Below, piece after piece: positions 58,605-64,000 of a DNA stretch of 64,000 nt; position 1 is the first letter of the stretch; each line of letters starts with the position of its first letter. The notes beneath the pieces are model-generated. The model searched no databases. It had not been told where the DNA came from and worked only from the letters and a program-made list of their open reading frames with translations. Origin of the DNA: Paraburkholderia sp. (lineage in GTDB: Bacteria; Pseudomonadota; Gammaproteobacteria; Burkholderiales; Burkholderiaceae); NCBI RefSeq assembly GCF_004298475.1, contig NZ_SCRP01000017.1, positions 84,480 through 148,479 of the forward strand, given 5' to 3'. Made by a program: the position numbers and the translations under genes.

Positions 58605-59015
58605 ATGACCTTTTCCAGAGCCTTTGCCATGCTGCTGCTGTTGGGCGCCGGGACTGTTGGCGCACAGCAGGCGCCGCCCTCGACACCCGTGACACAGGTA
58701 ACACCGCTGATGACCAGGGCGCTCGCGGACTATCCCGGCAAGGAAGCGGTGGTTCTCACGGTGGAGTACCCGCCGGGCGGATCGGATCCCGTGCATCGGC
58801 ACAATGCGCACGCATTCGTCTATGTGCTGCAGGGATCGATTGTGATGGGCGTGCGCGGCGGCAAACCCGTTACGCTGACGCCAGGCCAGACCTTTTACGA
58901 AGGCCCTGACGATGTACACACGGTTGGACGCAACGCCAGTCTTACCGAACCCGCAAAGTTTTTGGTGTTCCTGTTGAAGAGTCGCGGCGAGCCTGTTTTG
59001 ACGCCAGTGCATTGA
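58605..59015 (+). CDS. Exported cupin-domain protein
   Basis: 136-residue protein with a signal peptide (MTFSRAFAMLLLLGAGTVGA, cleaved near QQAP) and a single cupin. Motif 1 is PVHRHNAHAFVYVLQGSI, with metal-ligand histidines, and motif 2 is PGQTFYEGPDDVHTVGRNAS. A metal-binding periplasmic cupin; the substrate is unknown. Last gene of the NmrA-like/AhpD-like operon, followed by a strong terminator. Confidence 0.9.
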   Translation: MTFSRAFAMLLLLGAGTVGAQQAPPSTPVTQVTPLMTRALADYPGKEAVVLTVEYPPGGSDPVHRHNAHAFVYVLQGSIVMGVRGGKPVTLTPGQTFYEGPDDVHTVGRNASLTEPAKFLVFLLKSRGEPVLTPVH

Positions 59016-59070
59016 GGTCAGTTATCCGGGTCGCACGGTTGCTCTTATTCTGGTGATCTGTGCCAATAGA

Positions 59071-59108
59071 AAAGACCCATAAGTTTCTCAACTTATGGGT
59101 CCGTTTTT
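59071..59108 (+). terminator. Intrinsic terminator after the cupin gene
   Basis: A 12-bp perfect stem GACCCATAAGTT / AACTTATGGGTC (59074-59085 and 59090-59101) with loop TCTC, followed by CG and TTTTT. Confidence 0.93.
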
Positions 59109-59525
59109 CTCGGGTCATGCGTTTATCTACACCACCCCTCATGTACGTTTTCAAAGAAAGTGAAAATCTAGTCCGTTGAAAATCAAGGCATTTTGCACGT
59201 TTGTGCAAACGCAAGCGCGCTCACGTTTGCACAAAACGTGAAAATTTCCCACAATATTCTCATATTTCGCGAAAATTTCCGCGAGCAGGCTCCGCACTGT
59301 AGCAGTTCATAGCCGTGCCGGATTGGCACATCCATCAGCTCCAGCCTGTCTGACAGAATTACGTCCCAAGCTGTCATTTCGATTGCTGCAACGCAACTGC
59401 CGCGATATGGCTATCTGGCCGGGCTCAGTCGGACGTACGCCGTGGAGCCCGCTCGGCTCGCTTGTTTTTTAAGCACATCAAATGCGCGCTTGGCTTCGCA
59501 GACTTTCGATGGCTGACTTGATTGC
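59109..59525. other. Gene-poor region left of the IS21 element
   Basis: About 417 bp with no firm gene. Two palindromic sequences are notable: CGTTTGTGCAAACG (59198-59211) and ACGTTTGCACAAAACGT (59223-59239), which share GTTTG/TGCA elements. A 64-codon minus-strand frame (59183-59377) beginning MTAWDVILSDRLELMDVPIR is possible but unsupported. Base composition falls here, marking the left edge of the island. Confidence 0.45.
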
Positions 59526-59553
59526 TGTTAATTTGCACTGAATCCTGACCCAC
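59526..59553. repeat. Left terminal inverted repeat of the IS21 element
   Basis: 28-bp end whose last 23 bases (59531-59553) match the right end perfectly; the outer five differ by one base (A for G at 59530). Confidence 0.92.
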
Positions 59554-59598
59554 GATTTGCGTCGAATTCTGACCCACTCGTTGGACCAGCTTTGCGGG

Positions 59599-60225
59599 TT
59601 ATTCGGTGGGTATCTGGGTCTTCTTTCTCTCCTTTTTTGACTGCGTTGTGCTGTTTCTGAAACGGTAGCTGTCGTTGCCTGTTTCTACAATGTGGCAGTG
59701 ATGCGTGAGCCGGTCGAGCAGCGCGGTCGTCATCTTTGCATCGCCAAACACACTGGCCCACTCGGCGAAGCTCAGATTGGTGGTGATGATGATGCTGGTT
59801 CGTTCATAGAGCTTGCTGAGCAGGTGGAACAGCAGCACACCGCCGGTCTGGCTGAAGGGCAGATAGCCGAGTTCGTCGAGCACAACGAGATCGGCATACA
59901 CGAGCCGTGTTGCGAGTTGTCCTGGCTTGCCCACCAGCTTCTCCTGTTCAAGTGCATTGACCAGCTCGATGGTGGAGAAGAAGCGCACGCGACGACGATG
60001 GTGTTCGAGGGCCTGCACACCGATCGCGGTTGCCAGATGAGTCTTTCCTGTGCCGGGCCCGCCCACCAGAACGATGTTGTGCGCTGAGTCGATAAACTCG
60101 CACTGATACAGCTGCCGCACCAGCGCTTCGTTGGCGTCGCTGCAACTGAAGTCGAAGCCGCCGATGTCGCGATACGCCGGGAAGCGTCCTGCAGCGCAAA
60201 CCGGGGGCGCTTCGCAATGGCGCAC
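59599..60225 (-). pseudogene. istB: IstB helper ATPase, 5'-truncated
   Basis: 208 codons of an IS21 IstB AAA+ ATPase, which normally has about 250 residues. Walker [13 protein letters not shown] is at 54-65 and Walker [11 protein letters not shown] near 112-121. The conserved block [17 protein letters not shown] starts only at residue 14, so the usual helical N-terminal 50 or so residues are missing. The new GTG start lies at the deletion junction. Probably non-functional, but the ATPase core is whole. Confidence 0.88.
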
Positions 60226-60229
60226 CCTT

Positions 60230-61318
60230 CACCTGGCCTTCGGCGACGAAGACGAGCTTTGCAGCGTAGACGCGCAGGCTGATGGGCCGGTTGGCGAACG
60301 ACGCCGGCACGCTGTAGCGGTTGCGCTCGAAGTTCACGAGACAGGTTGGCGAGACGCGTTTGGTGTGTTCAACGAAGCCATCGAACGGCTGGCCCACCGG
60401 CATCAGGTGCGGTCGCTCGGCAGACCACGCATCCCATATCGTTGTGTCCTGCTCCGGGTGACGTGTCTGCTGCCACAGCAGCACGCACTGGTCGGCCAGC
60501 CAGTCGTTGAGCGCGGCGAGCGAACCGAACGTCGGTGCCTTCTGCCAGAGCCGGCGACGACTGTCCTGGACGTTCTTCTCGATCTGCCCCTTCTCCCAGC
60601 CGGAAGCGACATTGCAGAACTCGGCGTCAAACAGGTAGTGGCTCACCATCGCGCTGAACCGTGCGTTGACCTCGCGCACCTTGCCCGGGCGCACCCTGTC
60701 CACGGCGGTCTTCATGTTGTCATAGATGCCGCGGCGTGGAATGCCGCCCCAGGTCACGAACGCGTGATGATGCGCGTCGAACAGCATCTCGTGGGTCTGC
60801 AGCAGGTAGGCACGCAGGAAGAAGGCGCGGCTGTGGCTGAGCTTGAGCTGCGCGACCTGCAGCTTGGTGCGCTCGCCGTTGATGACGGCCCAGTCTTCGC
60901 TCCAGTCGAACTGGAACGCCTCGCCAGCGGCAAACCGGAGTGGAACAAACGTCCCGCGCCCGGTCGTCTTCGCCTGTTCGTGCTGTTCCTGTCGCCAGCG
61001 CCGGGCAAACGCCGCCACACGGTCATAGGAGCCGGTGAAGCCCAGTGCGCACAGGTCCGCGTGGATCTGCCTGAGGGTTCTGCGCTGTTTGCGGGGCCGG
61101 TTTGCTTCGGTCTTGAGCCAGCCTGCGAGCTTTGCAGCAAACCCATCGAGCTTGCTGGGGCTGTGGCGCACGGGATAGGCGGGTAGCACGGTGCCGGCCC
61201 GTATGTAACGCCTGACCGTGTTTCTGGACACGCCCAGTCGTTTGGCAATCTCGCGTAACGAGACACGATCGCGAAAGTGCCAGCGTCGGATGATGCTCAA
61301 TATAGCCACGTCGATCAC
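60230..61318 (-). pseudogene. istA: IstA transposase, 3'-truncated
   Basis: Residues 1-362 of an IS21 IstA are intact: helix-turn-helix (VSLREIAKRLGVSRNTVRRY, about 19-38) and the DDE catalytic residues Asp138 (FDWSED), Asp200 (IYDNMKTAV) and a Glu at 242 or 247 (GWEKGQIEKN). After FVAEGQV near 60230 the reading continues in the IstB reading region out of frame, so the normal C-terminal 120 or more residues are gone. The frame remains open to 59948 as junk. Confidence 0.88.
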
Positions 61319-61392
61319 TCCGTTCCCCCGCCCGTTGCCGAGCAGGTCAGTGTTCTACGTGGGTCAATATTCGATGCAAATTACTGCGCAGG

Positions 61393-61420
61393 GTGGGTCA
61401 GGATTCAGTGCAAATCAACA
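61393..61420. repeat. Right terminal inverted repeat of the IS21 element
   Basis: GTGGGTCAGGATTCAGTGCA followed by AATCAACA, the reverse complement of the left end except for one base. Confidence 0.92.
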
Positions 61421-62058
61421 TTCAAGACGTCCACAGCCTTCGTATAGCGGTCAATTAGGTCCGCGTCATCGAGAACGGCCTGTTTTCCCTTCGCAATCTC
61501 GGCATCGAGATTGAAATATTCGGCTGAGCGATACCCGACGTGAAACGATAGAACCGTACCCTTCCAGTTCTCGTATTTGTAAATCTCGAAACTGTTCAGC
61601 GGCTCGACCCATCCGCGCATCTGGTCAACGTAGAAAGCCACAAAGTAGTGCTCCGGCGAGGGCACTTCGTGAATCCACGGTTCCTTCCTCCGCGGCAGCT
61701 TCGCGCCAAACCCGACCAACGAGGCGAACTTCTTCTCGAACTCGTCGCTGCCCACCTCGTAGGACGTCCACAAACCATCGTCCGCTCGTATCCGCCACTC
61801 GTCGCGGTGCCGAGTTACGTAGTGTTCACGCCCGCCGAGCTCGAACTTCAGCAGCGCACGAACATCGAAATTCTTCCAGTCCGTGTCGAACGCCATATCG
61901 CACCCTAGTGTCCATAGCGGTAGGCGTGCGAGCGTAGATTTGCCGATAGAGTTATCCGCGCCCGTTATCAGGTTTAAGCCGGCTTCGAACCCGAATCGTC
62001 CGGCGAGCTTTCGGGTAGTCGACTGCACGTAGAGGGTCCTGAATATCAATGCGCTCAT
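61421..62058 (-). pseudogene. SMC-like AAA ATPase, C-terminal part lost to the IS
   Basis: About 213 codons of the N-terminal part of an ABC/SMC-type ATPase remain. FEAGLNLITGADNSIGKSTL (24-43) carries the P-loop, with an Ala before DNSIGKST where most families have Gly. The IS right end at 61420 ends the gene; the open frame takes four IS-coded residues and stops, so Walker B and signature motifs are missing. Upstream lies a DUF4297 gene in the same direction. Partner ATPases of this type drive nuclease effectors in several anti-phage systems; the exact family is not certain. Confidence 0.75.
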
Positions 62059-62110
62059 GGGCTTTCGTACGCAAATTTCTTACGAGCAGTTTGTAGTTGG
62101 GTAATCCCAT
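61952..62110 (-). CDS. Tiny frame coupled to the nuclease gene
   Basis: 52 codons (MGLPNYKLLVRNLRT...) starting four bases after the DUF4297 stop, in a different frame from the ATPase and overlapping its first 36 codons. The product is basic. It could be a remnant of the small middle protein of three-component systems or just a leader that carries ribosomes to the ATPase start at 62058. It has no recognised domain and only a weak ribosome site. Confidence 0.3.
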   Translation of the reverse strand: MGLPNYKLLVRNLRTKAHERIDIQDPLRAVDYPKARRTIRVRSRLKPDNGRG

Positions 62111-62114
62111 ATCA

Positions 62115-63221
62115 CTATGACCTGAGATACTCGATTATGTAGGCGGCGGCGCGGCTCTCTCGGTCTCTGAGATGCTCGGTGACGACAGGCGCGCAGGTGT
62201 TGACCAAGCTATCCAGCGTCTGTCGGCACAGTACCGCTTCGAGCGTCGACAGGTGCTCGCGTATTGAGTCTCGGACTTGCACCTGAACCAGCGCTCCTCC
62301 GGCCAGCGTGTTGAGCAAGTAGGTACGAGCGCGCTCCCGAAGCCTTTTTACGTCACGCGTCAGAAACCCCAGCTCGCGGACCTGTGAATCAAAGTCGTTG
62401 ATGAGTTCGTCGGTGGACGCCGTCGACGAGTATTGCGCGAACAGTGCTTCAACGCGGTCGGCCGTTAGGCCCTTCCGCATGACAAGCTGGTCCCAGTCGG
62501 AATAGTCCCAAGCAATCTCGCCCTTGCGCCGTAACTCGTCGGTGAGCACGACATATATCTGAGTGCTGTTGCTGTGCTGGTTTGGATTGCGCTCAGTGAG
62601 CAGGTCGGAGATTAGACCTATGACAGCGTGGCGCGTGGAACGCGTGTCGAGCGAAGGTTCGCGGAAATGCAGCTTCTCGAGAGGAACGCTAGCGTTCAGC
62701 TCTGTCTGCAAAGACTCGCGGATAACGGTGGCGGTCTTTTCTTCCAGTTCGCTGAAAGGTATCTCTTCTAGGCGAAATCCGGAGGTCTTCAACTTAAGCG
62801 AAAAACCACGAGTCGCCACTAAGCCCAATTTTTGGACGCGCTCGGCAATATCCTTCGCCGCGATACTGGACAGCATTTTGCCGAGAATGGAGTTCTTGGC
62901 TCCCGACCGCTTAATTAAAGCCTGTGAACTGTATCCGCTCTTCCCACCGGCCTTGACCTGACAGAAGATAAAACTCGTTTCCTCTGCATCTAATGACGTC
63001 CCGAAAACCACGTCCTCATGTAGCTCGACGAAGACAATGCTCGCCTCACCTCGATGATGGAGTTCAAGGAACTCATGCAGCGCCCAGTCATACTGATAGC
63101 TGAATCGGTCCGCAGTCACCGCCCCCGCCGTCTCACGCTGTGGTGAAAAAAGCGGGTTCGGAGATTTAGCTCCCGAAGGAGCCAGCGGGGATTGCGACCC
63201 GGTCGATTTTAGGTCTCTCAC
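62115..63221 (-). CDS. DUF4297/Cap4-type nuclease-like protein
   Basis: 368-residue protein. Residues about 30-110 match the pattern of DUF4297 (Cap4-type dsDNA endonuclease, PD-(D/E)xK fold): RFSYQYDWALHEFLEL, then VELHEDVVF with candidate acidic residues Glu66 and Asp70, and CQVK with Gln88 and Lys90. The remaining 250 residues have no domain I recognise and may be a sensor or dimerisation part. The GTG start at 63221 lacks a strong ribosome site. Less GC-rich than the chromosome, next to an SMC-like ATPase gene; probably an anti-phage effector. Confidence 0.7.
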   Translation of the reverse strand: MRDLKSTGSQSPLAPSGAKSPNPLFSPQRETAGAVTADRFSYQYDWALHEFLELHHRGEASIVFVELHEDVVFGTSLDAEETSFIFCQVKAGGKSGYSSQALIKRSGAKNSILGKMLSSIAAKDIAERVQKLGLVATRGFSLKLKTSGFRLEEIPFSELEEKTATVIRESLQTELNASVPLEKLHFREPSLDTRSTRHAVIGLISDLLTERNPNQHSNSTQIYVVLTDELRRKGEIAWDYSDWDQLVMRKGLTADRVEALFAQYSSTASTDELINDFDSQVRELGFLTRDVKRLRERARTYLLNTLAGGALVQVQVRDSIREHLSTLEAVLCRQTLDSLVNTCAPVVTEHLRDRESRAAAYIIEYLRS

Positions 63222-63631
63222 GTCTAAGGGCGGCGCTTTTTAGTTGCCCCATTATAACCAGCGTATGCAGCATCATCGATACGCATCTCTGATTAGAAGG
63301 GCCGCGCCGTGATATTGAACCGCTCGTCGCGAGCTGTGCAGAACGTATTCCGTGCGGCTGGGAGGTGTCGAAATATGCGATTTGAATCCTGAAGCTTCCG
63401 GCTGGAGTCCGAAAATACGTCCCTCGCCGTCCCGCCCAAACGCGTTTTGAAGAGCTGAACAATCTCGCACTTTCGTGACTGTGACAGAAGTTCCAGCCAA
63501 GTACGAAATTTTCCAATGCTGTAAGCGTCTGTTTTTAAATGGTTTCTTTGCAGCCCAAAGTAAAATTTGCGCGACACAGTCACATGGTCCTACTATTATA
63601 AATAGCGCTGTGTGACAGGGACACTCCGAGC
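63222..63631. other. Divergent promoter region of the defence-like island
   Basis: 410 bp without a gene, clearly AT-richer than the chromosome. CTACTATTATAAAT (about 63591-63604) is a good -10-like region for the rightward gene at 63632. GACACAGTCACA (about 63573) and CTGTGTGACAG (about 63608) flank it as partly related inverted motifs, a possible operator. Minus-strand frames here look random. Confidence 0.5.
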
Positions 63632-63882
63632 ATGACCGACGACTTGCACGACTTCTTGGTGAAAGAAGGCCCCCAGCTCAGTGGGAGCGTTGCACTTGGC
63701 CTCGCGAGCTGGCTTGGCATCACACCGGCGGCAGCACGGAAGAAAATCGAGCGCCGAAGCGCGGAGGTACGCGCGCTGACTATCCCCTTCGCGCGTCGCG
63801 CAAGATTTCTGTATGCGGCCAGCCAATATGGCAGCGATAGATTTTGGGCCCGGCTAGCTCAAGCGTTTGAAGAAGGCAATGG
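63632..63882 (+). pseudogene. N-terminal fragment of an unknown protein, cut by a second IS21 copy
   Basis: 83 codons (MTDDLHDFLVKEGPQLSG, then LASWLGITPAAARKKIERRS) with a possible helix-turn-helix-like pattern, followed by IPFARRARFLYAASQYGSDRFW. The gene is interrupted at 63883 by an IS21 left end; the open frame adds 13 IS-coded residues. The layout suggests an N-terminal winged-helix part of a larger defence-related protein, but I do not recognise the family with confidence. Confidence 0.6.
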
Positions 63883-64000
63883 TGTTGATTTGCACGGAAT
63901 CCTGACCCACGAATTGCATTGAATTCTGACCCACCCGTTGGACCAGCTTTACGGGTTATTCGGTGGGTATCTGGGTCTTCTTTCTCTCCTTCTTTGGCTG
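63883..64000 (-). mobile_element. Second IS21-family copy, left end only in window
   Basis: From 63883 the sequence TGTTGATTTGCACGGAATCC and the next 90 bases repeat the left end of the element at 59526, with a few differences, including the internal GAATTCTGACCCAC repeat and the end of istB (from about 63958). Orientation is the same as that of the first copy. The rest lies beyond the window, so its integrity is unknown. Confidence 0.9.

Follow-up and report, generated by a model that had tools for sequence, protein, structure and literature searches.

A predicted two-gene Lamassu pair and a separate divergent gene broken by IS21 elements in Paraburkholderia

Introduction

In a stretch of 64,000 nucleotides from Paraburkholderia sp. 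(hereafter the window), a short segment near the right end is enclosed by two IS21-family elements. The segment raises the question of what the enclosed genes were, whether they belonged to one system, and what the insertion elements did to them. An earlier note on this DNA had proposed an antiphage system with the logic of ABC-three-component and Lamassu (DdmABC) systems, made up of a Cap4-type nuclease gene, an SMC-like ATPase gene and a divergent gene. Here, we propose with considerable confidence that a two-gene Lamassu system and a separate nuclease gene (Dvg, the divergent gene) were part of an acquired island next to gyrB, that IS21 broke both, and that the 3' part of LmuB was lost and the system should be dead.

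Results

The segment at 61421-63882 is the exact interval between two IS21 ends, as the earlier note had placed it: the left copy (59526..61420, minus strand, 1,895 bp, with ends TGTTAATT...ATCAACA) stops at 61420, and the visible end of the right copy (63883..64000, minus strand) starts at 63883 and stops at the contig end. The GC content of the segment is 55.1%, compared with 64.6% in positions 1-59000 of the window, so that the AT-richness claimed for it is real. The LmuB fragment (61421..62058, minus strand) represents, by alignment, the N-terminal 212 of 566 residues. LmuA (62115..63221, minus strand), a predicted Cap4 double-stranded DNA endonuclease effector, is full length at 368 residues when aligned with six relatives. 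On the plus strand, the first 83 codons of Dvg occupy 63632..63882, and the rest of the gene is on contig C10 of the same genome. A search of positions 59000-64000 against Rfam gave a single match, with a score under the gathering score of its family.

LmuA matched the Pfam family Cap4_nuclease (PF14130) at 1e-39 and the PADLOC LmuA model at 3.9e-98, and the LmuB fragment matched positions 1-213 of 571 of the PADLOC LmuB model at 3.8e-76. Both the nuclease gene and the SMC-like ATPase gene read in the same direction, as described in the earlier note, are thus confirmed. NCBIfam gave zero matches for LmuA or the LmuB fragment, and no solved chain was matched by LmuA by sequence alone at E up to 0.1. 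The intact LmuB of Paraburkholderia susongensis (locus L009) matched the PADLOC LmuB model at 2.7e-173 and the PDB entry 9ux7, "Lamassu protein LmuB," at 2.7e-6. Since the Pfam match of LmuA and the PADLOC matches of both genes are joined by uninterrupted copies in two genomes, the presence of LmuA and LmuB at this place is not due to chance. The gap between the two genes is 56 bp in the window (62059-62114) and in L009 (11108-11163), and no gene was found within it in either. Since the gap is without a gene, the middle component (LmuC) of the DdmABC or three-component form is not there between LmuA and LmuB; the family assignment of the earlier note stands for the Lamassu pair but not for that form. 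Some Lamassu systems are without LmuC, according to the available part of one review (PMC10586767). Judging from the family models, the segment is a Lamassu pair of the two-gene form, with a Cap4 nuclease, LmuA, and an SMC-like protein, LmuB.

A pattern was matched by 57 stretches of the genome-contig collection, and two of them encode a LmuA relative: L009 and a locus in Burkholderia sp. SRS-W-2-2016 (L010), with LmuA 98% identical. Both loci are uninterrupted. At the DNA level, the segment shares 96.8% identity with the L009 copy and 97.3% with the L010 copy, and in L009, LmuB (566 residues) comes 56 bp behind LmuA (368 residues). The expectation of the earlier note that the system, decayed here, would be whole elsewhere in Burkholderiaceae is therefore borne out by copies about 97% identical. 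LmuA was present in 5 of the 398 sampled family genomes, this one included, with LmuB adjacent in the other four; it also occurred in seven plasmid records, and in both of the two that were inspected a LmuB homologue lay directly downstream. In all eight contexts examined (L009, L010, L020-L023, L060, and L061) LmuB is directly beside LmuA on the same strand. The earlier reading hinged on a nuclease fold in the 368-residue protein and on homologues next to the ATPase; nuclease family matches and adjacency in eight of eight contexts were what we found. No LmuA relative was found in the viral contigs. The L009 stretch with Lamassu and Dvg matched none of three genomes (G403, G085, and G150), and the same query did match the genome of this strain.

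In the left IS21 copy, residues 1-362 of the 504 in a relative's IstA and residues 69-263 of the 273 in its IstB could be aligned, while IstA residues 363-504 and IstB residues 1-68 were without counterpart, the sole counterpart of the missing parts being a 16-residue, chance-like piece. By these alignments, the left copy (59526-61420) is internally deleted, and since the end of istA and the start of istB are missing, its own mobility has probably been lost. No target duplication was seen at its two edges. The right copy shows just 118 bases because contig C28 stops at the window end; its interior is absent from the assembly contig, and pieces of istA and istB are known for the left copy alone. 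At 109 of these 118 positions, the right copy is identical, without gaps, to the end of the left copy. Both copies have TG...CA ends, and a repeat is found around the right copy alone.

This repeat is a 10-bp direct repeat, AAGGCAATGG, which stands before the right copy in the window (63873..63882) and recurs directly behind the IS21 end on contig C10; 8 bp of it are also the overlap between two BLAST matches to L009. Intact Dvg in L009 is a protein of 548 residues, of which codons 1-83 are in the window and residues 86-548 at G000:C10:113-1501, behind the IS21 end. Since AAGGCAATGG is on both sides of IS21, we read the Dvg break as a simple (clean) insertion and the repeat as a target duplication. 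IS21 target duplications are 4-8 bp long, and the 10 bp here exceed that. We infer the adjacency of contigs C28 and C10, which are unjoined in the assembly, from the IS ends, their orientation and the repeat. The Dvg remainder at C10:92-1504 runs uninterrupted for 470 codons from a GTG start inside the IS21 end, so a Dvg protein without its N-terminal region could be made.

On the LmuB side, an alignment with six relatives showed that the fragment retains GADNSIGKST and stops before CPLC and LVLDTPNQQ. We take GADNSIGKST to be the Walker A motif and LVLDTPNQQ to be the Walker B region of LmuB. CPLC is the zinc hook of LmuB, for which a motif CPxCG or similar is given in the available part of PMC10586767. 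When the genome of this strain was searched with L009:6200-13600, two places only were matched, the window segment and C10:122-1718, which indicated that the remainder of LmuB is not in the assembly; a gap in the assembly could, however, hide the lost part. The two outer genes were broken in different ways, Dvg by a simple insertion and LmuB by a loss of sequence. The earlier note was right that both genes are cut exactly at IS ends, but the like appearance of the two cuts covers unlike events.

Behind the Dvg half, C10 carries a C-terminal PD-T7-1-like remnant that aligns at 52% identity with residues 284-398 of the homologue in L009, and the L009 homologue itself (L009:6729-7925) matched the PADLOC PD-T7-1 model at 2.1e-114. 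The remnant is followed on C10 by a gene pair, one member of which gave a partial-length match to "cll" (4.2e-15), and by a type II CBASS (HNH-SAVED effector, cyclase, E1-E2, and JAB) with an exonuclease effector at positions 4948-10709 of C10 (L019). The genes after CBASS, read from their translations, appear to be gyrB, dnaN, and dnaA. The defence-island setting that the earlier note had in mind is supported by the PD-T7-1 homologue in L009 and the type II CBASS on C10. No integrase was seen among the C10 open reading frames listed, by reading the list.

In a close relative (G403), the counterpart of the window sequence as far as 59141 (92.6% identical) is contiguous with that of C10 from 10936 (96.8%), with a 15-base overlap at the gyrB stop codon. 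This contiguity indicates that the island was inserted at the gyrB stop codon with an imperfect repeat on both flanks. The island edge in the window, at 59127..59141, is an imperfect 15-bp repeat that resembles the gyrB stop-codon sequence (C10 10936-10950) and looks like an attachment site. The island beside gyrB thus provides a case of a site in its empty and its filled state. In L010, the same downstream sequence follows gyrB unbroken and the island starts further on, so the islands of L010 and of this strain are not at the same base. L010 also has a separate 268-residue protease-like open reading frame (L010:5900-6706) before its PD-T7-1 counterpart, with weak matches to protease-bearing PADLOC models (best 7.1e-9). 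A fused protease-LmuA, as described in the available part of PMC12799240, was considered and dropped, since this open reading frame is separate and not fused to LmuA.

The residues E355, D388, E402, and K404 are invariant in all 15 aligned Dvg homologues (499-556 residues). When a profile of these 15 members was compared with the nuclease domain of Card1, D388, E402, and K404 were aligned, with a weak E of 0.0088 over 57 profile positions, and the aspartate column of the alignment reads N in chain 6xl1. Two further chains were matched at E 0.072 and 0.13, and a nine-member profile matched Card1 at no better than E 0.14. For the L009 Dvg protein, nothing in Pfam or NCBIfam scored above the curated cut-offs, and PHROGs gave no match at E 0.1; there was likewise no NERD match in Pfam at E up to 1, and no match to a CARF family at the curated cut-off. 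Its PADLOC matches were two sub-significant ones, at 0.0069 and 0.031, and the former, to a CARF-nuclease model, covers residues 353-405, in the nuclease part only. Our reading of the alignment suggests that the front is helix-turn-helix-like and that the centre resembles a degenerate nuclease. From its conserved residues and its context, Dvg is most likely a stand-alone DNA-targeting nuclease with a helix-turn-helix-like recognition front and a C-terminal PD-(D/E)XK cutter.

Dvg matched 9 of the 398 sampled family genomes and 2 of the 398 phylum genomes, this strain being included in both counts. Three of the other eight family matches are partial (59, 118, and 232 residues), and two of these have stops. 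Among 72,556 plasmid records, 357 matched, of which 187 are from Klebsiella, many being probably related plasmids. A profile scan of the viral contigs found one Dvg relative, followed by open reading frames read as terminase and capsid genes; a scan of the viral contigs with three single Dvg homologues found none, and no match was found in 50,697 phage records at E 1e-5. A literature search by six Dvg-homologue accessions found no mention.

The neighbours of Dvg were searched with PADLOC at 10 loci outside this island, with one to three proteins each and several picked as defence-looking, so that the counts are not those of a fair sample. Named systems were found at four of the ten: Gabija (L055), SIR2-HerA (L063), AbiL with type IIG restriction (L067), and the AbiEii half of AbiE (L037). 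Candidate or partial matches were found at two: at L036, an ATPase had its best match to the candidate PDC-S06 (8.9e-292) and also matched a single LmuB model at 2.8e-11, and at L056 there was a single "cll" match. The neighbours at the remaining four loci (L035, L052, L053, and L054) gave no PADLOC match. Three plasmids of Escherichia and Klebsiella (L064-L066), with lengths of 3,240, 4,686, and 5,658 bp, have the Dvg homologue as one of 2, 5, and 6 listed features, respectively, in PLSDB gene tables that are incomplete. A block of a HEPN nuclease, a gene of unknown function, a Dvg homologue and a DUF4238 protein is repeated on plasmids L035, L062, and L063; on the F-type plasmids L062 and L063, it is followed by another such gene and ccdAB.

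Discussion

An ABC/SMC ATPase head requires both of its halves. Since the LmuB fragment is without the zinc hook and the Walker B half, LmuA would be left without a working sensor, and the Lamassu system in this strain should be nonfunctional. That the truncated LmuB and LmuA still act, as a shortened sensor or a dominant-negative form, in a locus that is kept and not decaying, seems to us highly improbable: LmuA is open and full length and the fragment retains Walker A, but one half of the head is gone, and every Lamassu component, including the putative ATP binding of LmuB, was essential where tested, as stated in the available part of PMC10586767.

A dead Lamassu system is thus the reading we keep for the pair, and Dvg has to be weighed apart from it. 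Its back-to-back position with LmuA here and in both whole copies would fit a third, regulatory or effector component of Lamassu, divergently transcribed; yet the three copies all represent a single island, with about 97-98% identity. In none of the four other family genomes did Dvg occur in the 18-kb stretch around LmuAB, and tblastn (E 0.001) found neither LmuA nor LmuB in any of the 16 other Dvg stretches, although this set includes several short stretches and three complete plasmids of 3-6 kb, and a similar block is shared by L035, L062, and L063. The same tblastn set held L009, where both LmuA and LmuB were present, and C10 of this strain, where neither was. With each occurring without the other in the stretches tested outside this island, we dropped Dvg as a Lamassu component, which we regard as very unlikely, and with it the place that the earlier note had given the divergent gene in the system. 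Dvg behaves as a unit independent of LmuAB.

What this unit does is a more even question. Dvg may belong to a larger, unrecognised family of defence nucleases that act as single proteins, with a helix-turn-helix-like front, a degenerate nuclease-like centre and a PD-(D/E)XK rear. Such a gene would travel by itself among chromosomal defence islands, prophages and plasmids, some of them as small as 3.2 kb with two annotated genes; we hold this tentatively, at somewhat short of an even chance. Its presence among the few annotated genes on plasmids of 3.2-5.7 kb and upstream of ccdAB on two F-type plasmids would also suit a plasmid or island maintenance gene, for example a nuclease that removes competing plasmids, with no part in phage defence. 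Chromosomal copies of Dvg, however, adjoin Gabija and CBASS, and one copy, on a viral contig, has neighbours that we read as phage packaging genes, and we consider a maintenance role rather unlikely.

The history of the locus may then be put as follows. An acquired defence island beside gyrB would have carried the Cap4 nuclease LmuA and the SMC-like sensor LmuB, with the separate single-gene nuclease Dvg standing back to back with them. One IS21 copy would have jumped into Dvg, leaving the 10-bp repeat, and at the second copy the last ~354 codons of LmuB and whatever came after them would have been lost. In the whole copies, if they work as the published family does, LmuB would detect abnormal DNA and set off the nuclease LmuA, and the infected cell would be harmed or killed; in the available part of PMC10586767, LmuB is likewise given as the likely sensor of abnormal DNA and LmuA as the effector. 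This strain would be left with LmuA and a dead system.

The Lamassu pair is nothing unusual: it is of a known and well-studied kind, and is broken here between IS21 copies. The Dvg family, for which the libraries searched contain no dedicated curated model, is the more interesting part. If our reading of it is true, it would add an easily tested single-gene system and tell what some minimal plasmids carry.

Among known systems, Dvg may be compared with Card1/Can2 (CARF plus PD-(D/E)XK, DUF1887). Its nuclease motif aligns with that of Card1, including the aspartate that is N in 6xl1, but the likeness is weak, over 57 profile positions, and the PADLOC CARF-nuclease match is limited to the nuclease part. 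The annotation "NERD domain-containing" is attached to several distant relatives of Dvg from small plasmids, and some of the family thus goes under that loose name already, whereas L009 Dvg is without a NERD match and the listed relatives are mostly annotated "hypothetical protein." The pair shares a Cap4-domain effector and an SMC-like protein with DdmABC of Vibrio cholerae, as described in the available part of PMC10586767, but the intact copy in L009 is without a third gene between LmuA and LmuB. With two-gene Lamassu, the pair shares effector and SMC-like genes adjacent on the same strand, and the family models and a PDB LmuB chain are matched; the copy in this strain differs in being broken, with LmuB short by about 354 residues, and no gene lies between LmuA and LmuB.
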